In this document: positions 10,603 through 27,612 of the stretch, one piece after another
How the letters are laid out: each line of letters begins with the position of its first letter
Position numbering within the stretch: the first letter of the stretch is position 1
IMG/VR virus record: IMGVR_UViG_3300020123_000431
Span: 1 to 30,349 of that record
Origin: a virus
Reading direction: 5' to 3' (one strand)
Length of the DNA stretch: 30,349 nt
Notes under the pieces: generated by a model
Database searches by the model: none
Seen by the model: only the letters and a program-made list of their open reading frames with translations
What the model was told of the DNA's origin: nothing
Translations under genes and position numbers: made by a program

Positions 10603-13320
10603 GTGCCTCTTACCGTTCAAAAGATCACCACCTTCCAGAGGGCGGCATACGATATCGCCGGTCCAACGGCGACTTCCACTTTTACTCTCAGCTCGAAAAC
10701 AGCGAAGGGCGGCTATGGAATCGTGGGCCGGTTCCAGCTCCGCAACTCGATGCTGGCTCCTTACCGGACCCGCCGGCAGGTTCTTTTTGACCGGACCGCC
10801 TACGATATCGCCGGTCCGACGGCGACTTCCACTTTCACGCTGAGCTCGAAGACGGCGAAGGGCGGCTATGGGATCCTGGGCCGGCACCAGTTTCGTGCGT
10901 CCATGCTGCGCGTCGTCTTCGACGTCGCGATGGTTCCGGATGGAATTGCTTCGGGCTTCGCGGCGGGCACGCCGATCGTTCTTCCGACCCAAATTCTCAG
11001 CCCCGGTGGGATCGCGTCAGGCTTTGCCGCCGGCACGGCGTTTCTCAAGGTCCCGCTTACGACCACCGGGATCGCGAGCGGCTTCGCGGCGGGCACGCCC
11101 TTTGTGGCGCCTTCCTGGATTGTTGCGCCTGGCGGCATTCCAACCAGCTTCGCCGCCGGAAACCAGCTCGTTGCTCCCACGCAGCAGCTCGTCATCAATG
11201 GCGATATCTTTTCCGGAGTCCGGATCGGCGTTCCACTGATCGCGGGTGGCAACCCGCAGCCCGCCGGCATTCCTTCGAGCTTTGCCGCCGGCGACCCTAG
11301 CGTCTTTGAGACCCAGCTCGTCGCGCCCTCGGGCGTCCCTACGAGCTTCGCTGCAGGGCTGCCGCTCGTCCGTCTGGTCCAGACCATCCAAACGCCGACC
11401 GGGATCGCGTCAGGCGTCGCGCTGGGCCATCCTGCGGTGAACGGCGCGGTCCAACGCGTCATCGTCTCGCAGTCGATCGGCCCGCCCGATATCGGAATCC
11501 CGAGGCTCAACGGCGGCCGCCAGTCGCTCCAGTGCTTCATTGCCGGCGTCGACGTCACCGACTTCTTCCGCGTCGAAATCGCTGCAGTCGCTTCGCAGAC
11601 GATCGGGCGCTGGACGTTCACCTTCGACTTGTTCACCCGCGGCGGCGCGGACCTGTCGTGGATCCAGCTGGGGCACCCGGTGCTCGTCCAGGAGTTCGGC
11701 GTCAAGGTTTTCGCCGGCTGCATCGCGGACATTGTCGCGGTCCCGACCATTTCAACGCCGGGTGCGATCTTCTACCACATCACCGCGAACGATAAGACCG
11801 GCATCTGCGACCACCGCCTCGTTGCGCCGATCATTTATCCGGCGGCTGCCGACGCGGCCGACGTCATTCGCGCGGTGCGCGACTCCTCGCTCAACGGCGA
11901 AGGCATCACCACTAACGGCGTTCCTGCGTCGCTGGGAGCGCTTGGCGCCGACCTGCCGATCAACTGGGAGTCGGTCACTTCGGTTTATGACCGCATCGCG
12001 ACCTCGACCGGTACGGTGTGGTGGGTCGATATCAACGGCGACCTTCACTTCTCCTCGCTCGTCTCGCTTGAGGTGGTTCCGTTCGAGATCACGGACACGA
12101 GCGGCAACTATCGCAACCTGAGCGTTCGCCAGACGCTCCAGGATTATTTGAACCGCCAGGTGGTCGTCTCGAACCTGACGGTCGTGCCCGAAGGATCGGG
12201 AGCCGGCGCTTCGGGCCCGGTCACCACGGAAACCTACGTCTTCGGACCGAACGGCCAGCAAGCCGCGTTCAATGCCGGCCTCGCGTTCGGCTACATCCTG
12301 CTCAGCTTGCCGCTTCGTGCGATCGTCAGCTTCAAGATCAACGGACTCGCAAAGCTGGTCTATTCGATCAACGACGCCGCGGCGCCGGCATACGGGTCGG
12401 TCGAAGCCTGGTATTACTTCGGCAGTCCGCAGGGCGGTGGCCAGATGCTATTCCCTGGATTCCTCGACGTCCACAACGGCGACACGGTCGAGATTCAATA
12501 CGTGCCGCTTACCCAGAGTTCGGCTGTGACCGAGGGCGACGCGCTCGACCCGAGCATCCCGCCTGGCGCGACGCTCAAGCTGTGCGGGAGCGGCCGCTAT
12601 GAAGCCGCCGAACAGGTGAAGGATATTTCCCTGCGATCGGACCTCGAGGCGATCGCGCGCGCGCTTCTCGATCGCAAGGGGGGTATTCCCACGATCGTCA
12701 GCTTCGAGTTTGACTTCCACGGCGCTGCGCCAGGGAAGCTGGTCCGCGTCGACCGTCCGGACGTGGGCGTAAGCAACCGAATGCTAATGATCACCTCGGT
12801 TTCGGGGAAGGCGATGTTTGCGGAGCTCGGGCCCGGGAATCGCTGCAGCTTCCGGTGGACCGTGACCGCGCGGTCAAACCACGACCCGGGCAATACGCTC
12901 AAGTGGACGGAACGCCTCGTGCGGCGCACCGAGCAGGCGCGTCCGATCATTCGCGACGAAACCGCGAGCTGGGTGATTTCGCCCGATGGCTCGGCGATCG
13001 CGAATGGCGTTCCCCTTGGCAATCCGCGGCCGGTTAAACGCACGGGGCGCCTAACCGAGCTGACGATTCAAACCGGAGTCACAAGCGTCGATCAGGATCT
13101 GACGGTCACCCTCTTCAACGGGTCGGGCGCGGCCCTCGGTCAGGTGACTCTGCCGGCGGCGGCGGCCATCTTCTTCCAGTTCACGTTCCTGTTTGGCGAC
13201 TCCAATCCGATCTACGTCTTCGGCGGCGATAATCTGTCGATCCAGGCGGTCACGCGCGATACGGGTCCTTCGCCCTCACCGGCTTCCAATATCACGTTCA
13301 CCGCGAGCTGGGAGTACTGA
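10603..13320 (+). CDS. Tail hub/tip protein with N-terminal tandem repeats
   Basis: This 905-residue protein starts at GTG 10603 behind TAGGAGG. Its N-terminus has two copies of a 51-residue unit (residues 13-51 and 64-102) containing YDIAGPTATSTFTLSSKT. Then come about eight 20-23-residue repeats with G-[IV]-[AP]-[ST]-[GS]-F-A-A-G (first residues 114, 136, 156, 178, a diverged one near 201, 222, 244, 267). Residues 305-800 have the alternating strand pattern and 'SLRSDLEAIARALLDRKGG...PGKLVRVDRP' layout of baseplate or tail hub proteins (gpD/gp27-like), which close the tail tube and anchor fibres. The last 90 residues look like a beta-sandwich, perhaps carbohydrate-binding. The hub assignment is by pattern. 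Confidence 0.65.
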   Translation: MPLTVQKITTFQRAAYDIAGPTATSTFTLSSKTAKGGYGIVGRFQLRNSMLAPYRTRRQVLFDRTAYDIAGPTATSTFTLSSKTAKGGYGILGRHQFRASMLRVVFDVAMVPDGIASGFAAGTPIVLPTQILSPGGIASGFAAGTAFLKVPLTTTGIASGFAAGTPFVAPSWIVAPGGIPTSFAAGNQLVAPTQQLVINGDIFSGVRIGVPLIAGGNPQPAGIPSSFAAGDPSVFETQLVAPSGVPTSFAAGLPLVRLVQTIQTPTGIASGVALGHPAVNGAVQRVIVSQSIGPPDIGIPRLNGGRQSLQCFIAGVDVTDFFRVEIAAVASQTIGRWTFTFDLFTRGGADLSWIQLGHPVLVQEFGVKVFAGCIADIVAVPTISTPGAIFYHITANDKTGICDHRLVAPIIYPAAADAADVIRAVRDSSLNGEGITTNGVPASLGALGADLPINWESVTSVYDRIATSTGTVWWVDINGDLHFSSLVSLEVVPFEITDTSGNYRNLSVRQTLQDYLNRQVVVSNLTVVPEGSGAGASGPVTTETYVFGPNGQQAAFNAGLAFGYILLSLPLRAIVSFKINGLAKLVYSINDAAAPAYGSVEAWYYFGSPQGGGQMLFPGFLDVHNGDTVEIQYVPLTQSSAVTEGDALDPSIPPGATLKLCGSGRYEAAEQVKDISLRSDLEAIARALLDRKGGIPTIVSFEFDFHGAAPGKLVRVDRPDVGVSNRMLMITSVSGKAMFAELGPGNRCSFRWTVTARSNHDPGNTLKWTERLVRRTEQARPIIRDETASWVISPDGSAIANGVPLGNPRPVKRTGRLTELTIQTGVTSVDQDLTVTLFNGSGAALGQVTLPAAAAIFFQFTFLFGDSNPIYVFGGDNLSIQAVTRDTGPSPSPASNITFTASWEY
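10639..10908 (+). repeat. Direct DNA repeat, two ~115-base copies 153 bases apart
   Basis: The stretches at about 10639-10753 and 10795-10908 are near-identical copies, differing mostly at third codon positions (shared core TACGATATCGCCGGTCC). They encode the duplicated YDIAGPTATSTF unit of the tip protein. The high DNA similarity indicates a recent duplication or ongoing gene conversion, in contrast to the old repeats of the tape measure gene. Confidence 0.85.
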
Positions 13321-14523
13321 GTGATCGAGGCGGTCGACACTTTTTACACGACGCAGTTTGAATCGGCGGGCCTCCGCTACGAGGTCAATTCGGACATCTT
13401 CGCGCAGGGCGTAATGATCGATGGGCCGCCCGGCGGTCCCTCCGCGCGTCCGATCGGGCGCTCCTTCTGGATCTTCAACACCGGCTTTTCTAAAGCGGAA
13501 TACACCCGCTTCCTCGTGCCGCGCGACACCTGGTTCATCAACCTCTGGTTTCGCTCGCTGGTGGCCGCGACGGGCCCGCAAGTCCAGGTCTGGCGCGACG
13601 TCGAGTGGTACCGGATCCAGGATGCGACGGGAACGGTGTTTTCGATTCGCCTCCGGACGGATGGCCGGATTGAGTTCAAACGCTGGGACGGCACGGTGGT
13701 CTTAACGATCGGCCCCTATCCGGTGGGCGAGTGGCACGCCCTGCAGTTGAAGCTCGTCTTCGACGTGGCGCACGGCGCCTGGGTGGTGAAGATCGACGGC
13801 ATCGTCGTCGGGAGCGACACAAACGTCAATCTGACGGCGCGCAAGCCCGATCGCTTCACGCATCGCTGGACGGCTTCGGGTGGATTGAATCTCGCGCACT
13901 ACGTGATCAATAACGCGGTCGGGCCGGCGAACAATGACTTTCTCCCCTATCCCTGGTGGACCTGGCGCGTCGCGCCGGCGCTCGATCTGACCTCGAGCTG
14001 GGCGTCGAACGGTCCCTACTCGCGCGCGTTTGCGGTGGGTGACGACAAATCGAACCTCTACCACACGTGGCCCGATGGGAACCAGACCTACATCCAGCCG
14101 AACTTCCCTGGCGCTCTCTCGCTTTTCCGGATGGGAGAAAGCAAGTGCTTCGGACGGAACCTGGCGGTCGCGGCCACCGTGTGCGCGATCGGCCTCGTCC
14201 CCGACCAGGAGCTTTCACTCGTCGTAAGAGAAGCTCTCACGGTTCATCCGATCGGCGCGCCCCAGGCGCTGCGCAACTGGACGTCGCCACTTGCGCAGAC
14301 CGCGGACCTCCTCAACTACAGGCAGTATCAGCAGATCAGCGAAAAGTCGGACGAGACCGGATCCATCTGGCTCGATGGCGATATCGAGCGCGCGGCCTGG
14401 GGCTTCCAGGCAGGCAATTTCAGCATGCAGCTGCGGGCGACCGAGTTCTATTTGGAGCGTGTAACGACCACGTCGCCGGCGGTCTCTCACTCGTGTGGGC
14501 AGCTTGGCACTTACGCTTTTTGA
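13321..14523 (+). CDS. Lectin-like (concanavalin A/LamG-type) tail tip protein
   Basis: The 400-residue protein starts at GTG 13321 immediately after the hub stop. Residues 45-165 show the strand order and landmarks of a LamG/concanavalin-like jelly roll: 'W-F-I-N-L-W-F-R', 'V-F-S-I-R-L-x-x-D-G-R-I-E-F', 'G-E-W-H-A-L-Q-L-K-L' and 'V-V-K-I-D-G-I-V-V-G'. Such domains in phage tails bind host surface sugars. Residues 200-400 are also beta-rich and Trp-rich and may form a second module. It is the last large protein of the tail cassette, the usual place for a receptor-binding or host-range component; that role is inferred. Confidence 0.6.
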   Translation: MIEAVDTFYTTQFESAGLRYEVNSDIFAQGVMIDGPPGGPSARPIGRSFWIFNTGFSKAEYTRFLVPRDTWFINLWFRSLVAATGPQVQVWRDVEWYRIQDATGTVFSIRLRTDGRIEFKRWDGTVVLTIGPYPVGEWHALQLKLVFDVAHGAWVVKIDGIVVGSDTNVNLTARKPDRFTHRWTASGGLNLAHYVINNAVGPANNDFLPYPWWTWRVAPALDLTSSWASNGPYSRAFAVGDDKSNLYHTWPDGNQTYIQPNFPGALSLFRMGESKCFGRNLAVAATVCAIGLVPDQELSLVVREALTVHPIGAPQALRNWTSPLAQTADLLNYRQYQQISEKSDETGSIWLDGDIERAAWGFQAGNFSMQLRATEFYLERVTTTSPAVSHSCGQLGTYAF

Positions 14524-14538
14524 AGTAGATCTTCTCGA

Positions 14539-14544
14539 TACAAT
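14539..14544 (+). promoter_or_regulatory. Candidate leaderless -10 element for the gene at 14552
   Basis: TACAAT (14539-14544) is followed after 7 bases by ATG 14552, with no Shine-Dalgarno sequence between. A T-rich hexamer TTTTTG (14517-14522) lies 16 bases upstream as a poor -35. Confidence 0.4.
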
Positions 14545-14551
14545 CGTTTCG

Positions 14552-14821
14552 ATGGAACACACCGTGGTCGAACGTCTGCACATCGCTGTGGTCGATTTAA
14601 CCAAGGTCCTGGAGCGCCGTTTAGACGATCACGATCTGCTGATCAAAATGGCGACGCGTCAGGAAGTCATGCACGAGGAAATGAGCACGATCCACCGCGA
14701 GCAGCTGATCAACAAAAAAGAGCAGGACTCACGCCTCGCCGCCGTCGAACGAAAGATTTTCTATGCGGCGGGCGCGGTCGCGATGCTCGTCGGGCTGCTG
14801 AAGATGCTGGGCAAATTCTAA
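14552..14821 (+). CDS. Coiled-coil protein with C-terminal membrane helix (possible XhlA-like holin)
   Basis: The 89-residue protein starts at ATG 14552. Residues 5-65 form a long charged helix with heptad character (VVERLHIAVVDLTKVLERRL, later EQDSRLAAVERK). Residues 69-86 are a single hydrophobic segment, IFYAAGAVAMLVGLLKML, ending with a Lys. A coiled coil followed by one C-terminal membrane helix is the layout of XhlA-type haemolysin/holin accessory proteins, which help endolysin reach the wall. Its position just after the tail cassette agrees with a lysis gene. A tail-associated membrane protein is the main alternative. It appears to be transcribed from its own leaderless promoter. Confidence 0.5.
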   Translation: MEHTVVERLHIAVVDLTKVLERRLDDHDLLIKMATRQEVMHEEMSTIHREQLINKKEQDSRLAAVERKIFYAAGAVAMLVGLLKMLGKF

Positions 14822-14845: not shown

Positions 14846-14875
14846 TTGACAAGCGCCCGCCCTGTGGAATAGAGT
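14846..14875 (+). promoter_or_regulatory. Promoter of the long accessory operon
   Basis: A perfect -35 TTGACA (14846-14851), an 18-base spacer and TAGAGT (14870-14875, four of six to consensus) form the best sigma-70-type promoter in the window. Transcription should begin near 14882, leaving only 3-4 bases before ATG 14886. The mRNA is thus leaderless or nearly so. It heads the run of overlapping genes from 14886 to 22370. Confidence 0.7.
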
Positions 14876-14880
14876 TAGGC

Positions 14881-14898
14881 CCGTAATGCCCATTACGG
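14881..14898. promoter_or_regulatory. Perfect palindromic operator overlapping the start codon of the RHH gene
   Basis: CCGTAATG (14881-14888) and CATTACGG (14891-14898) are perfect reverse complements separated by CC. The site covers the predicted transcription start and the ATG (14886). A third half-site-like CGTAACG follows at 14900-14906, 18 bases from the first. The encoded protein has a ribbon-helix-helix pattern, so autorepression is the obvious model. Confidence 0.65.
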
Positions 14899-15149
14899 AC
14901 GTAACGATTCCCAAAACGGCGCACGAGCACACCCAGGCGCTTATCGTCGCGCGCGGCGACTTTGAAAAGAAGAGCTCGCTTCACATCCCCTGTTCGCGAT
15001 CGTTTTTGGATCACCTGCACGCGACCGCGCGTTCGCAGGGCGTGACCGTCCGCGACTTTGTCCTCGGTCGATTGCTGATGGCCACGGGACTCCCGAAGAA
15101 GCAACCGCCGGCGCTACTCGACGCGCGGGCCACAAGGAGACGACGATGA
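14886..15149 (+). CDS. Ribbon-helix-helix-like DNA-binding protein, predicted autoregulator
   Basis: This 87-residue protein has a short strand (SSLHIPCS, residues 30-37), then helix FLDHLHATARSQG (40-52), the turn V-T-V-R and a second helix DFVLGRLLMATG (57-68). This is the strand-helix-helix arrangement of Arc/MetJ/CopG-type repressors, which bind palindromes as dimers of paired strands. The tail is basic (ARATRRRR). Right at its 5' end lies a perfect 8+2+8 palindrome spanning the start codon and predicted transcription start, suggesting it represses the operon it heads. There is no Shine-Dalgarno sequence. Its stop overlaps the next gene's start (ATGA). Confidence 0.65.
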   Translation: MPITDVTIPKTAHEHTQALIVARGDFEKKSSLHIPCSRSFLDHLHATARSQGVTVRDFVLGRLLMATGLPKKQPPALLDARATRRRR

Positions 15150-15241
15150 TGGAACTGATTCCGACCCTGCAGCTCTACTGCCTGGGTCTCGGCGTGTTTT
15201 TCGGCGCGATCGCAGCGCTCGAAGCGTGGAGGCGCGGATGA
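15146..15241 (+). CDS. 31-residue single-pass membrane microprotein
   Basis: ATG 15146 overlaps the previous stop (ATGA) and has an excellent ribosome site AAGGAG (15134-15139). The product is 31 residues: a short acidic N-terminus, a hydrophobic helix LQLYCLGLGVFFGAIAAL (residues 8-25) and a basic end EAWRRG. The next gene again starts with a four-base overlap, so three lines of evidence (ribosome site, coupling on both sides, clear membrane helix) support a real small gene. The function is unknown. Phage membrane microproteins can act as holins, superinfection excluders or inhibitors, but nothing here discriminates. Confidence 0.65.
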   Translation: MMELIPTLQLYCLGLGVFFGAIAALEAWRRG

Positions 15242-15627
15242 ACTACCTCAGCCTCCAAAGCGAAGAGGAGCGCGTTCTCATCCTCGTGCGCGCGGCGATG
15301 TTTGCCGAGCTCCATCGCGACGCGGTGGAAACTTCCCAGGTCGCCGCGACCGACGTCGACGCGATCTGGAGCTGGGTCGATGAAGCGCTGGCCTGGTTGC
15401 AGCGCGTCCTTGAAACCTCGGAGTTCAAGCCCGATTGCATAGCGTGCAACCAGTTAAGCCTATCCCAGCACGGCCAAGACGAGAATCTGATCTGCCCAGA
15501 ATGCCGGACGCACCTCGTGCTTCTCGGCCTCGGGCTGATCATGGTCGACGACCGCTGGAGCGCGATGGCGCAGCGGATGTTCCCGACGTTCTTCGCAACC
15601 GGAACGGGGGCGTTTCCATGCAGCTAA
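15238..15627 (+). CDS. Hypothetical protein with zinc ribbon
   Basis: From ATG 15238 (overlapping the previous stop) the protein has 129 residues. The first 60 residues are helical and acidic, with AIWSWVDEALAWLQRVLE. Residues 67-89 carry two CxxC pairs (67/70 and 86/89) 15 residues apart, a classic zinc-ribbon knuckle pair. The C-terminal 40 residues contain a hydrophobic LVLLGLGLIMV. I do not recognise the family. A DNA-, RNA- or protein-binding role is plausible from the ribbon alone. Confidence 0.6.
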   Translation: MNYLSLQSEEERVLILVRAAMFAELHRDAVETSQVAATDVDAIWSWVDEALAWLQRVLETSEFKPDCIACNQLSLSQHGQDENLICPECRTHLVLLGLGLIMVDDRWSAMAQRMFPTFFATGTGAFPCS

Positions 15628-17192: not shown

Positions 17193-17327
17193 ATGATTGC
17201 TCTTCTTCTCTTGGCGGCGGTCGTCTGGGCGTTCGCGATTCGCGAGATCGCCATCGTCTCGCGCCGCACCCGTATGAATCGGTTGATCGCGCGCTTCCCG
17301 CTGCAGATCGGGGGGCCCCGTGGGTAA
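17193..17327 (+). CDS. 44-residue membrane protein
   Basis: ATG 17193 is preceded by AAAGG at seven bases and yields 44 residues: hydrophobic MIALLLLAAVVWAFAI (residues 1-16), then a basic tail with SRRTRMNRLIARF. It looks like a single N-terminal membrane anchor with a positively charged cytoplasmic tail. Its stop overlaps the first codons of the ParB-like gene. No function can be given. Confidence 0.55.
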   Translation: MIALLLLAAVVWAFAIREIAIVSRRTRMNRLIARFPLQIGGPRG

Positions 17328-18978
17328 GCGCGGTCTTCAGTCGCCCGCCTCGATCCCGATCGAACAGACGCCGCCGGCGTTTGAATCGATCCCCCTGGAG
17401 TTCATCCAGGAATCCGACTTCAACCCGCGAAAGCACTTCGCGGAAGCCAAGCTGCGCGAGCTCGAAAGCTCGATCCGGCTGCGCGGCATCATCCAGCCGA
17501 TCGTCGTTCGCTCCCACCCGAAGCTCCCCGCGCGCTACGAGGTGGTCGCCGGCGCGCGGCGCTTCCGCGCGGCGAAGGCGGTCGGCCTAGAGAAAGTGCC
17601 GGCGATCATCCGCGTTTTGTCCGACGTCGACGTGCTCGAAATCATGGTCATCGAAAACGGGCAACGCGACGACCTTCATCCGCTTGAGGAAGCGGACGGC
17701 TTCGGGCAACTGATGGAGGTCGGCAAATATGACGCCCAGACCATCGCGCAGAAGGTCGGCCACGACGAAACCTACGTCTACCGGCGCCTCGCGCTGCGCA
17801 AGCTGATCCCCAAGGTGCGCGAGTCCTTCGAGGGCGGCGGGATCCAGCTCGCCCACGCACAGCTGATCGCCCGCCTCGCCCCGCCCGACCAGCAGCTGGC
17901 TTTTGAAATGGCGTTTCACGAGGACCGCGCCTGGGACGAGAAGAAAAAGCGGGTGTCCCTCTCGCGCCGCGTGATCCCGGCCCGCGAGCTCGAACGCGAG
18001 ATCGATAGCCGTATCATGCGCGAGCTTTCGACCGCTCCCTGGGACCTCGAGGATCCGGCGCTTCTGGAGCAAGCCGGCCCCTGCACGGCGTGTCCCAAGC
18101 GATCGTCTGCGCAGGCGGCGCTCTTTGACAAGGGCGGCCAATCGAGCGATCGCTGTCTCGATAGCCACTGCTGGTCGCTGAAGCTCGCGGCGCTCTTCAG
18201 CACGAAGATCGTCACGATCCAGAACGTGACCGGGAAAACACCGGTTCGCGTCGCCGAGTCGTGGGTGTCAAGCGACGCCGATCGCTCGCTGCAGAAAGAC
18301 CACAAGCCGCAGCTCCAGCATCACGAATATGAAACCGTCCTCAAGGGGAAGGAGTGCGGCGCGATGGAGCCGGCGCTCGTTGTGCACGGGGAAAACGTCG
18401 GCCAGCAGATCACGATTTGCCGGTCGAAGACGTGCAAGGTCCACCGCGGGCGTTCGTCGGGTCTCCAGAAGTCGGCGGGCGATCGCGCCCGTGAAAAAGC
18501 GCAGCGCGCCAAGGTGGACCTCGAGCGCCGCATCTGCGCGCGCATCTTCTACGCGATCGGATCTAAAGCGAACTTCCCGCCCCGCCGGAAGGAGCTTGAC
18601 CAGGTCTTCGAGCGTGTGCTCGATCTGAAGAACCACGACGAGCTCCGCTTCCTCTCGATCGACGTCTACAAGCTCGAAGCTCCGAAGACGAAACAGTTCG
18701 GGCCCGACTATGGCGGCGCGCTGCGCGCGCGCTACAAGAAGGCAGCTGACGCTGAGGCGTTCCGGATGTTGGTAGCGGTCGCGTTCGCGACGCCGCCTTT
18801 CTCCTTTGCGACCAAGCGCGCGGAGTGGATCACTGCCGCTGCTCGCGCGTTCAAAGTCGACGTTCGCGCGATCACCACGCACGAGACCAAGCTCTCAAAG
18901 CCTGCTGCTGGCACAAAGCCGGCGCCGGCGAAAACCAAAGCTCGCGGCCGCGCTGCGAAGAAGCGGGGTGCCAAGTGA
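17320..18978 (+). CDS. ParB/Spo0J-family protein without a ParA partner
   Basis: The 552-residue protein starts at GTG 17320 after a G-rich stretch. Residues 24-115 form the ParB N-terminal (CTPase/nuclease-like) domain with NPRK (35-38), the GARRFRAAKAVG motif (78-89) and IENGQRDDLHPLEEA (111-125). A helix-turn-helix follows at about 137-162 (AQTIAQKVGHDETYVYRRL). Residues 255-284 hold C-x2-C...C-x4-C, a probable zinc site found in a subset of plasmid/phage ParB-like proteins. The tail is Lys/Ala-rich. No ParA ATPase is in the window, so roles in plasmid-like maintenance, DNA binding or transcription are all open. It overlaps the next gene by four bases. Confidence 0.8.
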   Translation: MGKRGLQSPASIPIEQTPPAFESIPLEFIQESDFNPRKHFAEAKLRELESSIRLRGIIQPIVVRSHPKLPARYEVVAGARRFRAAKAVGLEKVPAIIRVLSDVDVLEIMVIENGQRDDLHPLEEADGFGQLMEVGKYDAQTIAQKVGHDETYVYRRLALRKLIPKVRESFEGGGIQLAHAQLIARLAPPDQQLAFEMAFHEDRAWDEKKKRVSLSRRVIPARELEREIDSRIMRELSTAPWDLEDPALLEQAGPCTACPKRSSAQAALFDKGGQSSDRCLDSHCWSLKLAALFSTKIVTIQNVTGKTPVRVAESWVSSDADRSLQKDHKPQLQHHEYETVLKGKECGAMEPALVVHGENVGQQITICRSKTCKVHRGRSSGLQKSAGDRAREKAQRAKVDLERRICARIFYAIGSKANFPPRRKELDQVFERVLDLKNHDELRFLSIDVYKLEAPKTKQFGPDYGGALRARYKKAADAEAFRMLVAVAFATPPFSFATKRAEWITAAARAFKVDVRAITTHETKLSKPAAGTKPAPAKTKARGRAAKKRGAK

Positions 18979-19181
18979 TCTGGCATCTGTTCGCGCTCGC
19001 TCTTTCGTTCGCGTTTGGTTCGGTCGCGGTCCACGACTTGAAGCAGGGCTGGCACTACTCTGCGCTGTTCTATGGCCTGCTGGCGATCGACATCTTCGTG
19101 CTTGAGGTCACAGAGAAGCCAGGCCGACCGCGAGTCCCTGGCGTGTTCGTTCCCCGCAGAAAGGCTGGTGGATGGCGATGA
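18975..19181 (+). CDS. Small two-helix membrane protein
   Basis: GTG 18975 overlaps the parB-like stop (GTGA). The 68 residues include a hydrophobic N-terminal helix (IWHLFALALSFAFGSVAV) and a second (YSALFYGLLAIDIFVLEV, residues 28-45), then a basic Pro/Arg-rich tail. The predicted topology is a hairpin with both ends in the cytoplasm. The function is unknown. Confidence 0.55.
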   Translation: MIWHLFALALSFAFGSVAVHDLKQGWHYSALFYGLLAIDIFVLEVTEKPGRPRVPGVFVPRRKAGGWR

Positions 19182-20029
19182 CCCTTTCACGTCCGCTCAT
19201 TCTTGAAAAGTCCCGCACCAAGGACGTCTCGCTCACTCCGACCGAGCGCTTCTTTAAGCCGGTGATCGTGATCGGCGCGCCCTGCTCGCGCGCCGATGCG
19301 GAATTGATCGGCTGCGAGTGGCTGTTCGACGCGCAGGGAAACGCGCACCACTTCGAGGGTTCGGTCAAAGCGACTGCCGAGCTTTCAACGGCAGCCGTGA
19401 CGCTCCGCGGCGTCACCCTCTCGACCGACTTCAAAGCGGAGAAGATCGTACACTTCCGCCTGGCGCGGGTCGAGAAAGTGGGCCTCGAGGTACAGATGCG
19501 GATCCACCTCACCGAGCACAGCCCTGAGGACCTGGTCCCGCTGCTTGCGTTTCTTTCGACGCTCAACAAGGAGGAGTTCGTCCTTGAGATCACTTCGTCG
19601 CAGATGCAGCTCGAACCGGCGAAGCCGGTAAAGGACACAATATCGAAGCGGAAGCCGACCCGCGACGCGGATGGGATGCCGGTGCCGATGGAATCCGGCG
19701 AGTACGATGCGAACCTCGCGACTGGCGTCCCCTTCTCGAACAAGCACGTGGTCGCAACCGTCGCAAGCCTCGAGGTGCGCGGCGGCTATATCGCGGGCTG
19801 GCACTTCCGGGTGACCGGGAAGGTCGCGCGCGCGTCGGGCGAACCGCTTTCGGTTAAGAGCGAGGTCTACGCCTCGGAATCGGAAGCGATCGAGCACGCG
19901 GCGCTTGCGGCGCATGCGTTCGGGCTGGGGATCCTTCCCGACGCGACCGGGCCCACGGAGGCCTCGGTGCGCGCAGCAGTTGAATGGCTGGCTGAGCGAT
20001 GCCCGAAGCCGGCGGGGGTGACCCAGTGA
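19172..20029 (+). CDS. Conserved-looking hypothetical protein
   Basis: The 285-residue protein starts at ATG 19172 (AAAGG seven bases upstream); ATG 19178 is an alternative that would give the usual four-base overlap. Residues 60-140 look beta-rich (repeated strands such as VTLRGVTLSTDF, KIVHFRLARVEKVGLEVQMRIHL). A charged linker follows, then another beta region (VVATVASLEVRGGYIAGWHFRVTGKV, about 190-215) and a helical C-terminus. I do not recognise a family or catalytic motif. Position between ParB-like and RusA-like genes would fit a DNA-metabolism accessory factor, but that is only context. Confidence 0.6.
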   Translation: MAMTLSRPLILEKSRTKDVSLTPTERFFKPVIVIGAPCSRADAELIGCEWLFDAQGNAHHFEGSVKATAELSTAAVTLRGVTLSTDFKAEKIVHFRLARVEKVGLEVQMRIHLTEHSPEDLVPLLAFLSTLNKEEFVLEITSSQMQLEPAKPVKDTISKRKPTRDADGMPVPMESGEYDANLATGVPFSNKHVVATVASLEVRGGYIAGWHFRVTGKVARASGEPLSVKSEVYASESEAIEHAALAAHAFGLGILPDATGPTEASVRAAVEWLAERCPKPAGVTQ

Positions 20030-21351: not shown

Positions 21352-21912
21352 ATGCTTTCCGAAGTCCCCTCGTTCATGGTCCCGGAGAGCGAAGGCCTCG
21401 GCCCCCACATGCTGCTGGTCCACCTCGAGTTCCCGATGGAGCTGCCATCGAAGAAAAACAACCTGCAGCGCCGTGGCGGGAAAGCGCGCGGCGGGCGCCT
21501 CATGTATTCCGAGGAGGTTCGCTCGGCGATGCGCACCGCGGAGCTGCTCTCTAAGGTCCAGTGGGGCGCGCGCCTGCCGGTTGAGCACCCGATGGTGTTC
21601 GTCAAGATGGCGATCGCGAACCCGGCCAAGGATCCGGACGGGATCTGGACTACGCTCGTCGACGCGCTCGTCAAGGGTGGCGTTTTGCGCGACGATTCGG
21701 TGCGCGAGTTCAACGGACCGAAGTACTTCGCGCCGGTCGCCCTTTGTGAACCAGGGCACGAGCTGGTGGTCGTCGAGCTCGTGTTCCCCGATCCGGATCC
21801 TGTAACGGGCGAGCTCCACGAATGCGAGCTTCCGCGTGTCGATCCCTTCACCCTGCGTAGAATGAAAGTGACTGGGCGGGAGCCGGCGGGCCGCAGGAGG
21901 TCACCAAAGTGA
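21352..21912 (+). CDS. rusA: RusA-like Holliday junction resolvase
   Basis: The 186-residue protein carries LPSKKNNLQRRGG (residues 31-43) and DPDGIWTTLVDALVKGGVLRDDSVREF (94-120). The spaced acidic residues Asp94, Asp96, Asp104 and Asp114/115 match the metal-binding set of RusA endonucleases ('D-x-DN...D-L...V-DD'). RusA dimers cut Holliday junctions and help phages resolve recombination or branched replication intermediates before packaging. Gly97 replaces the usual Asn after the second Asp, a mild deviation. The N-terminus is longer than usual, and ATG 21409 (Met20) is a plausible alternative start. It is followed by the zinc-ribbon gene in an overlapping arrangement. Confidence 0.75.
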   Translation: MLSEVPSFMVPESEGLGPHMLLVHLEFPMELPSKKNNLQRRGGKARGGRLMYSEEVRSAMRTAELLSKVQWGARLPVEHPMVFVKMAIANPAKDPDGIWTTLVDALVKGGVLRDDSVREFNGPKYFAPVALCEPGHELVVVELVFPDPDPVTGELHECELPRVDPFTLRRMKVTGREPAGRRRSPK

Positions 21913-22370
21913 GAAATCCGCGCTGCCACATATGCAGCCTGGTCCACCCGCCTTTCACGAGCTGCGCCGAGGCGCGCCTCGCTGCGCTGCAGTTCATCCT
22001 TTCGCACGCTGGCCGCGAAGACACGTGCCGCGCGTGCGGTGCAAAGCTCTACTGGACGATTCGCGTCGACGGAACCTATCGCGCCTACAACGAGCTCGGG
22101 CGCCCCCACATTTCCGGGAGCACGTGTCCCTCGCCCGCCGAAGCCGAGCGGGTCGAGGATTATAATCCCCCGGTCGAACAGCGCATCCGTTCGCTCCTGC
22201 TCGCGATCGCGCCGGCAAGCCGCTGCCAGTGCGGAACGCCCATTTTCTTCGTCAAGTACGGGACGGGCAAGAGCGCGCCCTACACGATAGCCGGCTTGGT
22301 CCATTTCGCGGACTGCCCAGCCGCCCTCCGGTTTCGACGGCCCCGCGTCCCCGTGGGAGCCGGTGGATGA
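21909..22370 (+). CDS. Zinc-ribbon hypothetical protein
   Basis: GTG 21909 has GGAGG seven bases upstream and overlaps the RusA-like stop. The 153-residue protein has CHIC at residues 6-9, CRAC at 40-43 with nearby strands (KLYWTIRVDGTYRAYNELG), a later Cys-containing CP motif (about 74), CQC near 106, and a final H-F-A-D-C. These could form one or two zinc ribbons. The repeated 'C-x-C-G-x-x-[IL]-[YF]...P-Y' arrangement suggests two copies of a ribbon fold, at 38-75 and 104-138. It is the last gene of the long operon and is followed by the putative origin. Confidence 0.6.
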   Translation: MRNPRCHICSLVHPPFTSCAEARLAALQFILSHAGREDTCRACGAKLYWTIRVDGTYRAYNELGRPHISGSTCPSPAEAERVEDYNPPVEQRIRSLLLAIAPASRCQCGTPIFFVKYGTGKSAPYTIAGLVHFADCPAALRFRRPRVPVGAGG

Positions 22371-22439
22371 GCTGTGCATAAGTCTGTGACTTTCCAGGGG
22401 ACATCCTGCGGGAAACTGCGGGTGCCAGTGGAAGTTTTT

Positions 22440-22477
22440 CGGGCAGCCCTGGTTTTGCACAGCCCGCCCTTTTTTTT
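22440..22477 (+). terminator. Possible terminator of the accessory operon
   Basis: A short GC arm CGGGC (22440-22444) can pair with GCCCG (22462-22466), or GGGC (22441-22444) with GCCC (22466-22469), followed at once by eight T residues (22470-22477). The stem is weak for its loop size but the T-run is one of only two such runs in the window. Confidence 0.4.
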
Positions 22478-22531
22478 CCACCGCATCCGCCCACAGCATA
22501 AAGCTCTGACACCACGCTCGTTAGGTCTGTT

Positions 22532-22560
22532 TTCCACGTTTCCACAGGGCTTCATATTAT
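22532..22560 (+). promoter_or_regulatory. Candidate promoter for the 22593 gene group
   Basis: TTCCAC (22532-22537), a 17-base spacer and TATTAT (22555-22560) form a weak sigma-70-like promoter inside the DnaA-box cluster. A second -10-like TAGAGT (22578-22583) lies nine bases before ATG 22593 and would make a leaderless RNA. It is the same hexamer as at the operon promoter 14870-14875. Confidence 0.3.
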
Positions 22561-22592
22561 TCTTGTCAGAGGAGAGGTAGAGTTCTAAGACT

Positions 22593-24756: not shown

Positions 24757-24788
24757 ACCGCGCCGCAGGCAGTTCGAGTTCCACGCCG

Positions 24789-24820
24789 CCCCCGGAGCAA
24801 TCCGGGGGTTTCGTGTTTCT
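24789..24820 (+). terminator. Strong intrinsic terminator with GNRA loop
   Basis: CCCCCGGA (24789-24796) and TCCGGGGG (24801-24808) form a perfect 8-bp GC-rich stem closed by the GCAA tetraloop, followed by TTTCGTGTTT. It ends the rightward unit from 23784 to 24756. Confidence 0.85.
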
Positions 24821-24830
24821 GTGATAGGCT

Positions 24831-24987
24831 CGCTTCTTAAGAAAGCCGGTCCTTCCCCGCGCTCTAATTGACGCCTTCAAATCCGGAGCGCGCAGACTGG
24901 CTTTCAACGATCTGTATCCTCCGTCACTCCGGGCCGTTGGACGCGCGCGCTTCACGAGGGCGCACCCGTTCCCTCGGCCCCTTTTTT
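24831..24987 (+). ncRNA. Candidate structured small RNA (unknown)
   Basis: This non-coding stretch starts just after a terminator and ends in its own. An 11-bp stem GAAAGCCGGTC (24841-24851) / GACTGGCTTTC (24895-24905) with one G-U pair encloses a second 7-bp stem CGCGCTC (24858-24864) / GAGCGCG (24886-24892). A five-bp stem (24905-24909/24935-24939) is also possible downstream. It closes with CGAGGG (24955-24960) / CCCTCG (24971-24976), then GCCCC and TTTTTT (24982-24987). No protein start or ribosome site is visible on this strand. Candidate -10s upstream are poor. A packaging or cos element is an alternative to an RNA. Confidence 0.45.
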
Positions 24988-24990
24988 ATT
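24955..24990 (+). terminator. Intrinsic terminator ending the structured stretch
   Basis: CGAGGG (24955-24960) pairs with CCCTCG (24971-24976) over six positions with a 10-base loop; after GCCCC a run of six T (24982-24987) follows. The T-run overlaps the stop codon of the convergent minus-strand gene. Confidence 0.6.
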
Positions 24991-25489
24991 CGCTGGCTGT
25001 GACGACGTGCAACCTGGTGTTACCGGCTGCAACCATTCGGGCGACCGCCTCGCGCTGGACCCGGTCACCGATCACGATGCAGCCGTCGCTTGCCGTGTGG
25101 TCGTGGCTTGCGGTGTCGGCGTGAAGCCAGAAGCCACTGCGCCCGAACATTACGTTCGATGGATCCGGCACAAGCGGCATCGCGAACGGCCCCAGGTGCG
25201 GGTGGTTCACGGCGCGCCCGATCGTATACCAGCCGACCGGAAGCGGCCCGACCCGTTTCATTGCAGTCGCCGCCGGATTGTTCAGACCAACACCGTGACC
25301 GGAGTAGCAGCTGCAGTAGGAGAGGCCGGCCAGGTACAAGTCCCCGGTCTCGATTTCATACAGCCACTGTTCTGGTTCGGTTGCGGGAAGCATTTGGGAT
25401 TCAAAAGTAACACGGCCCGCCAGCTTCCACAGAAACGCTGCCCGTTGTAGAATCGGGTCCGGAGACACCAGCTTGACCATACAAGCCAT
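24986..25489 (-). CDS. DUF2778 L,D-transpeptidase-like protein
   Basis: The minus-strand protein has 167 residues from ATG 25489, or 164 from ATG 25480, which has GGATGG just upstream. It shows the DUF2778 layout: Y-E-I-E-T-G-D-L-Y at 44-52, YSGHGVGLNNP (62-72), GPLPVGWYTIG (81-91), FGRSGFWLHAD (115-125) and ASDGCIVIGDR (133-143). His123 and Cys137 would be the catalytic pair. DUF2778 proteins include Tlde1-type effectors that attack or exchange peptidoglycan crosslinks. In a phage, this is likely a lysis or entry factor acting on the cell wall. No signal peptide is evident, so it would need a holin or virion delivery. It overlaps the divergent gene at 25473 by up to 17 bases. Confidence 0.72.
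   Translation of the reverse strand: MACMVKLVSPDPILQRAAFLWKLAGRVTFESQMLPATEPEQWLYEIETGDLYLAGLSYCSCYSGHGVGLNNPAATAMKRVGPLPVGWYTIGRAVNHPHLGPFAMPLVPDPSNVMFGRSGFWLHADTASHDHTASDGCIVIGDRVQREAVARMVAAGNTRLHVVTASE
25425..25453 (+). promoter_or_regulatory. Candidate promoter of the terminase-side operon
   Basis: TTCCAC (25425-25430), a 17-base spacer and TAGAAT (25448-25453) read rightward inside the 5' end of the minus-strand gene, 19 bases before the TTG at 25473. The -35 hexamer and spacing are the same as in the candidate promoter at 22532. Confidence 0.35.
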
Positions 25490-26244: not shown

Positions 26245-27612
26245 ATGCCACTAAAGGAAAGCAAATCAGTGAATCAAAAGGCCGATCGTTCATCGGACGC
26301 GCGATTCAGTGGGGAAAATCTAGCTGTTTTTGTGGAGATTTGGGGCATCGATCGACCGATTCCCTACGATCGGAACCCCCGGAAGATCCCCAAGCGCGCG
26401 ATCGAGACCGTGGCGCGATCGCTCCAGGAGTTTGGCTGGCAGCAGCCGATCGTCGTTGATTCTAAGGCTGTAATTATTGCAGGGCACACCCGGCTTCTCG
26501 CAGCGAAACACCTCGGTCTCACGCAAGTGCCGGTCCATGTCGCGAAGAATCTGACCGAGGCACAGGCCCGCGCCTACAGGCTGATGGATAACCGGAGCTC
26601 CGAGGACTCCTCCTGGGAGCTGAAGATCTTGGCGGTCGAGCTCGGCGCGCTGCGCGCGATGACAGTGGACCTGGCGGCGACAGGGTTTGCCGAGACCGAG
26701 ATCGCGCGCCTCCTGGCCGATCCCGATAACGAGGCGCTCGACGCCGTGCCGGCGGCGCCGGCGGTACCGACGTCCAAGCGCGGCGATCTCTGGCACCTGG
26801 GGAACCACCGTCTCCTCTGCGGTGACTCCTGCGACGCGGCCGACGTCGCCCGAGTACTCGGCGGCCAGAAGCCAACGCTCATGGTCACGGACCCGCCTTA
26901 CGGGATCCAGCTCGATACCGAGTGGCGCGATCGCGCCGGCGCGAACAAGATGGGGCCCGCCCAGCCCAGCTACATGAAGAAGCGGATCGCCGGCCACACG
27001 AACACGTCGGTCTCGGGCGACACCCGGGCGGATTGGAGCGAAGCGTTCGCGCACGTCCCGTCGCTCGAGGTGGTTTACGTGTGGCACGCGAGCGCCTATA
27101 CCCGCGAAGTACTCGACGGTCTTCTCCGGATCGGGTTCACCAACCCGCAGCAGATTATCTGGGCAAAGACGATCGCGGCGATGACTCGCACGCACTACTG
27201 GTACCAGCACGAACCCTGCTGGTATGCCCGAAAGAAAAACGCCCCCTGGTTCGGGGAGCCCGGGAAGAACACAACCGTCTGGTCTGCAAAGTCGCCCAAG
27301 CAGATCATGAGCGGTTCGACTGAAGAGAAGTTTGACCACCCGACCCAGAAGCCGGTCGAGCTGATGTCGATTTCGATTCTGAACCACACGAAGCCTGGCG
27401 GGCTGGTCTATGAACCGTTCGGCGGGAGCGGAACTACACTCGCCGCGGCTGAGTTCCACGGGCGAACGTCCTTCACGATCGAGATTGATCCGCAGTATGT
27501 TGACGTGATCGTCGATCGCTGGCAGCGTCTCTCTGGACGGACCGCGCTGTTCGAGGGCGGCGAGTCCTTCGACGAGGTGAAAAGGAAGCGCGCCCGAGGC
27601 CGGCGTGGCTGA
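26245..27612 (+). CDS. ParB-domain DNA methylase (amino-methyltransferase)
   Basis: From ATG 26245 the protein has 455 residues; GTG 26269, with AAAGGAAA about ten bases upstream, is an alternative start. Residues 30-120 form a ParB/sulfiredoxin-like domain with GHTRLLAAKHLG (80-91). The methylase has catalytic TDPPYG (215-220), 'HPTQKPVEL' in the later part, and the SAM-binding YEPFGGSGTT (389-398). The order, DPPY before FGGSG, marks the beta class of N6-adenine or N4-cytosine methylases. Such ParB-fused methylases are common in phages and mobile elements and likely guard against restriction. A T8 run and weak hairpin lie between it and the HNH gene. Confidence 0.88.
   Translation: MPLKESKSVNQKADRSSDARFSGENLAVFVEIWGIDRPIPYDRNPRKIPKRAIETVARSLQEFGWQQPIVVDSKAVIIAGHTRLLAAKHLGLTQVPVHVAKNLTEAQARAYRLMDNRSSEDSSWELKILAVELGALRAMTVDLAATGFAETEIARLLADPDNEALDAVPAAPAVPTSKRGDLWHLGNHRLLCGDSCDAADVARVLGGQKPTLMVTDPPYGIQLDTEWRDRAGANKMGPAQPSYMKKRIAGHTNTSVSGDTRADWSEAFAHVPSLEVVYVWHASAYTREVLDGLLRIGFTNPQQIIWAKTIAAMTRTHYWYQHEPCWYARKKNAPWFGEPGKNTTVWSAKSPKQIMSGSTEEKFDHPTQKPVELMSISILNHTKPGGLVYEPFGGSGTTLAAAEFHGRTSFTIEIDPQYVDVIVDRWQRLSGRTALFEGGESFDEVKRKRARGRRG

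Follow-up and report, generated by a model that had tools for sequence, protein, structure and literature searches.

Does a phage protein of the ribbon-helix-helix (RHH) class repress its own gene through a palindrome that covers the gene's start codon? The question arises in a tailed-phage contig, a viral record 30,349 bases long that was analysed whole and is called the window below. Tail genes (tape measure, phrog_644 and a large tail protein) lie at its left and the terminase genes at its right end. The gene in question (14886-15149, + strand) encodes 87 residues and stands downstream of a holin-like gene (14495-14821). We examined the fold of the protein, its promoter, the palindrome, the corresponding genes of related phages and the operon that the gene appears to head.

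Fold of the 87-residue protein

The preliminary description of this DNA had recognised in the translation the strand-helix-helix order typical of RHH repressors, and profile comparison, modelling and structural matches all bore this out. Taken alone, the protein matched the Pfam family ParD best, at a sub-threshold E-value of 0.007 over residues 32-67. Searches with it and its three positional counterparts in related contigs, each taken singly, likewise scored below the Pfam cut-off, and for all four the top or only match was an RHH or RHH-antitoxin family. A four-row profile, composed of the window protein and the short ORFs of contigs L084, L087 and L088, revealed a relation by sequence to known RHH proteins. 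Compared with PDB sequences it matched VapB12 (E = 7.5e-4), ParG (0.025) and CopG (0.063), as well as EndoAI; two higher-ranked matches were disregarded as designed proteins of repetitive sequence, matched in many tiny pieces. Direct homologs of the 87-residue protein were found neither among viral contigs, phages, plasmids and the PDB nor in 24 TerL-related records.

Structure prediction gave the RHH order when AlphaFold was supplied with the alignment: a short beta-strand at residues 31-36 followed by helices at 38-51 and 55-67. The mean pLDDT of this model was 59, with block means of 69-82 over residues 31-60, and the helices were its best-predicted part. The single-sequence model was poor and missed the strand. 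Among structural matches to the alignment-based model, phage P22 Arc ranked first (Z 4.4, 1.4 Å over 40 residues). A second-look structural alignment returned a list composed almost entirely of RHH proteins, the best being Arc, CopG, TacA and VapB12, while the Foldseek E-values of the model were above 1. We are confident that the protein has an RHH fold, with the domain at about residues 29-70.

Promoter and start codon

The 64-bp intergenic gap ahead of the RHH gene contains the promoter that had been pointed out, TTGACA-18-TAGAGT, base for base at 14846-14875. The -35 box (14846-14851, + strand) matches consensus at 6/6 positions, and the -10 box TAGAGT (14870-14875, + strand), of the TANNNT type, lies 18 nt from it and 10 nt before the ATG. 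Two sigma70-like matches were found between 14 and 25 kb, where shuffles led us to expect ~1.1 scoring 9/12 or more; this one, at 10/12, scores higher than the other.

The ATG at 14886 is the earliest start codon in its frame. No Shine-Dalgarno match was found in reach of it, and the next two genes each have one. In leaderless bacterial genes the first T of the TANNNT box lies ~12 nt before the start codon (PMC3160421). The corresponding distance in the window is 16 nt, so that a leader of 3-5 nt would be expected. The term leaderless used in the preliminary description is therefore too strong as it stands, and a near-leaderless start, with a short predicted leader and no Shine-Dalgarno site, is what remains of it. 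The spacing in L084 is alike (TTGCGG-17-TAGGCT-9-ATG). In L088 the box TACACT ends 6 nt before the ATG of its RHH gene, a spacing that fits a leaderless start. The holin-like gene directly upstream of the window's RHH gene is a candidate for a second such start, since its ATG at 14552 is preceded by a TACAAT box at a distance of 7 nt (14539-14552) and by no Shine-Dalgarno site.

Palindrome and half-sites

The candidate operator is a perfect 8+2+8 palindrome, CCGTAATG-CC-CATTACGG, at 14881-14898. It spans the predicted +1 and the ATG and is exact in the sequence, as had been claimed. The third half-site-like element that had been noticed next to it, CGTAACG, is also there, at 14900-14906; its half-site CGTAA (14900-14904, + strand) forms TTACG-GA-CGTAA (14893-14904) with the right arm of the palindrome. 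CGTAA/TTACG half-sites thus stand at 14882 (+), 14893 (-) and 14900 (+). The motif occurs 27 times in the window, and at this place alone do two copies fall inside 20 bp or three inside 30 bp. This third half-site, part of the sole CGTAA/TTACG cluster in the contig, adds further weight to the operator reading.

Taken alone, the palindrome is weak evidence for an operator. Perfect inverted repeats with arms of 8 or longer and gaps of 0-10 number 12 in the window, compared with 12.45 expected from simulated sequence. A repeat this good is present within -40 to +20 of 1.2% of all positions, and 0.56% of positions are covered by one; the chance of finding such a repeat near a given start is p ~0.01-0.02 (~0.012 for the window). 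A mismatch-tolerant scan with the arm fixed at 9 gave p = 0.052 for the window and 0.06 for L087. Of the 96 synonymous ways to write codons 2-5, only 2 retain the palindrome (~2.6% when weighted by codon use), and the GTA codon in the third half-site is rare, accounting for 6% of Val codons.

A scan of the full genome for the palindrome had been suggested. Run on the contig with up to three mismatches allowed, it returned the original site and no second copy, and a single site is consistent with autoregulation. There were no copies in fragments L002-L004, which are too short to reach the region. What is expected of an autorepressor, an inverted repeat over the promoter, +1 or start together with a single target, is thus present at this locus, with modest significance.

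RHH genes and repeats in related phages

Relatives were reached through neighbouring genes. Single-sequence scans with the ParB-like protein and the tail protein found none. A terminase alignment led to contig G004/L084-L085, whose TerL is 62% identical and in which a ParB-like gene, a large tail protein and several further genes keep the order of the window. From an alignment of the large tail protein came L086, L087, L088 and L090, together with a further contig that matches L084 exactly over the stretch compared; with this protein, alignments of two to six rows succeeded where the single sequence had failed. No same-species or closely related contig spanning the RHH gene was found.

RHH-type ORFs of 50, 63 and 52 aa are present at or near the corresponding place in L084, L087 and L088, and are 27%, 29% and 15% identical, respectively, to residues 29-70 of the window protein. 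In L084 and L087 the gene is placed between the holin-like gene and the ParB module; in L088 it stands in a different module. No RHH gene occupies the corresponding place in L086, L090 or L097, so the regulator is not universal in this phage group. In L097 a terminator-like hairpin and T run past the tail genes (~11190-11250) are followed by TAGGAT 7 nt before an ATG, and the transcription-unit boundary of this relative is the same as the window's.

The preliminary description had stated that lack of conservation of the palindrome in relatives with the gene would count against the operator. The sequence itself is not conserved among the relatives, and it was not found in the half of the L084 contig that bears the RHH gene. 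L087, however, has a repeat of its own over its ATG, a perfect 8+6+8 repeat of different sequence (p 0.024). In L084, CCTACCTTTGGTAGG (CCTACC-TTT-GGTAGG) lies beside the -10 (p 0.14), and in L088, AGCACGTGCT lies upstream of the -10 (p 0.33); these two repeats are short and unremarkable by chance. A perfect repeat with 8-bp arms therefore covers the start codon in two of four RHH genes. Fisher combination over the three relatives gave p ~0.03, or ~0.004 with the selected window case added. As the RHH proteins are only 15-29% identical, a change of palindrome is what joint divergence of regulator and operator would produce. Taken together, the repeats, the half-site cluster and the codon counts favour, short of proof, an operator that diverges with its regulator. 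Retention or replacement of the repeat along with the regulator is clear in L087 and weak in L084 and L088.

Operon and genome setting

Between 14886 and 22370 every gene is on the same strand, neighbours overlapping or being separated by short gaps. A search of the + strand for strong terminator-like sites in this interval found none, and a T8 tract follows at ~22472, past its end. An operon of ~7.5 kb is thus reasonable, and the earlier proposal that the RHH gene heads it is supported by this anatomy, by the gene's own promoter and by its placing in relatives. The RHH stop overlaps (ATGA) the start of a hydrophobic 31-aa ORF (15146-15241, + strand; Shine-Dalgarno AAGGAG), and L087 has a 41-aa hydrophobic ORF at the matching place. 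Next comes a 129-aa protein with a zinc-ribbon-like CxxC pair (15238-15627, + strand; Shine-Dalgarno GGAGG). Further along are the ParB-like protein (17320-18978, + strand), with ParB_N and HTH_ParB domains (Pfam E = 3.8e-29 and 1.6e-12), a gene with no assigned function (19172-20029, + strand), a RusA-like resolvase (21352-21912, + strand; PHROG E = 4e-4) and the last operon gene (21909-22370, + strand). These four have homologs in both L084 and L087 and form the module common to the three phages. The ParB-like protein also has cysteine motifs, and a second protein with a ParB-like N-terminal domain, fused to a DNA methyltransferase, is encoded at 26245-27612.

The intergenic gap that closes the operon (22371-22592) contains the T8 tract and a cluster of DnaA-box-like sites (TTWTNCACA, at most one mismatch): 5 of the window's 13 such sites, including both perfect ones. 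Clusters with two perfect boxes also follow the homolog of the 21909 gene in the relatives, at 897-1120 of L085 and 20593-20681 of L087, the latter inside an ORF resembling a helix-turn-helix replication protein. The cluster is likely the replication origin of the phage group, and its position after this gene in all three phages suggests that the operon is probably replication-associated.

Farther right, a strong terminator-like hairpin, CCCCCGGA-GCAA-TCCGGGGG (24788-24809), closes the rightward unit before a reverse-strand gene. At 24986-25489 (-), on the strand opposite to its neighbours, lies a Tlde1/YkuD-type domain (PF10908, E = 4.5e-13), perhaps a phage cell-wall enzyme of a type unusual for a lysin.

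Proposed autorepression and its alternatives

We favour, as somewhat more likely than not, the explanation that the 87-residue protein acts as an RHH repressor of the phage on its own promoter, and that the palindrome is plausibly its operator. Transcription would start at ~14882. RHH dimers would bind the half-sites at 14881-14904 via their beta-strands, covering the start region and preventing RNA polymerase from using the promoter or escaping from it. The RHH gene and the ~7.5 kb operon would then be on early and be kept at a set level once repressor accumulates. Transcripts from this promoter would carry the 3-5 nt leader and be translated without a Shine-Dalgarno site, and read-through from the upstream holin-like gene may be an extra source of transcripts. 

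Alternatively, the RHH protein could head the operon while the start-codon palindrome is coincidental; its operator would then lie at another place, such as between -35 and -10, or its targets would be other genes. RHH operators are often at or upstream of the -10 (PMC9477884, PMC4175270), the relatives' repeats vary in place and length, and the number of palindromes in the window equals expectation. Two of four RHH genes with perfect 8-bp-arm repeats over the start codon, and a third half-site in register in the window, argue against coincidence, and we regard it as unlikely, though a serious contender. It is improbable that the repeat acts instead as an RNA hairpin that sequesters the start codon and so limits how much regulator is translated, perhaps in read-through transcripts alone. 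The L087 RNA does form an 8-bp stem far stronger than shuffles (z -3.85), and that of the window can make a 7-bp stem with the AUG in stem or loop, but the fold in the window is matched by shuffles (z -0.07), no hairpin of this sort exists in L084 or L088, and the 2-nt centre is better suited to a DNA site than to an RNA loop. Folding in the window, L084 and L088 does not support the hairpin as the main explanation, and we rejected it as such.

A role as an antitoxin, or in plasmid-type maintenance in the manner of ParG, CopG or omega, in concert with the ParB-like protein and the origin close by and in place of dedicated repression of the operon, seems quite improbable. A ParD antitoxin as best Pfam match would suit such a role, as would the joining of the ParB-like gene and the DnaA-box cluster in one module of three phages. 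However, no conserved toxin-like partner adjoins the RHH gene: the adjoining 31-aa hydrophobic and zinc-ribbon-like ORFs gave no match to a toxin family, and the neighbours of the RHH gene differ among L084, L087 and L088. In addition, no ParA was recognised among the proteins scanned, and CGTAA repeats are absent from the origin-like gap. A composite scheme has an RHH regulator co-evolving with an operator over its own start codon, the same repeat serving as DNA operator and as RNA hairpin over a near-leaderless AUG, and the whole setting the dose of the ParB-plus-DnaA-box module in the manner of plasmid copy-number control; this we consider highly improbable.

Comparison with known systems

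Autorepression by the RHH protein would provide a candidate control point for an early or replication operon in an uncultivated phage group with almost no annotated genes. The locus offers a concrete candidate operator and a few relatives whose regulators and candidate operators seem to have altered in step. In a limited search of the literature, no RHH operators at early phage promoters came up. Phage P22 Arc, the best structural match of the model, is likewise a small phage-coded RHH protein, and it represses a promoter through operator half-sites located at that promoter. The Arc operator lies between -35 and -10, not over the start codon; the 87-residue protein has no detectable sequence homology to Arc, and the genomic setting differs. 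CopG of pLS1, an RHH repressor that matches the window protein by profile and structure, controls plasmid copy number at copG-repB, and the window's RHH gene has no homologous neighbour.

MobC of plasmid RA3 is an RHH autorepressor encoded by the first gene of its operon, with a palindrome with 8-bp arms at its own promoter, and in the related PromA plasmids promoter conservation is lost around the operator, and further palindromes are placed over the -10 or downstream of it (PMC4175270). The window gene resembles it in being first in its operon and in its 8-bp-arm palindrome, and the PromA palindromes vary as they do among the window's relatives. MobC differs in being a 176-aa conjugation protein with an imperfect operator between -35 and -10 (PMC4175270). 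Antitoxins of the MazE6/MazE9 type autoregulate as RHH dimers, their 18-bp operator taking in the TANNNT -10 box (PMC9477884), but they belong to toxin-antitoxin pairs, and no toxin partner was seen by the window's RHH gene. Lambda cI and CvkR are mobile-element regulators translated from mRNA without a leader (PMC9938897); unlike the window protein they have HTH or MerR folds, and the predicted leader of the window gene is 3-5 nt rather than zero. As a mechanism it adds little, since operators at the start of an RHH autorepressor's own gene are well known, and a start-codon operator with an RHH autorepressor is probably a sound but ordinary case of the self-control found in phages and plasmids.
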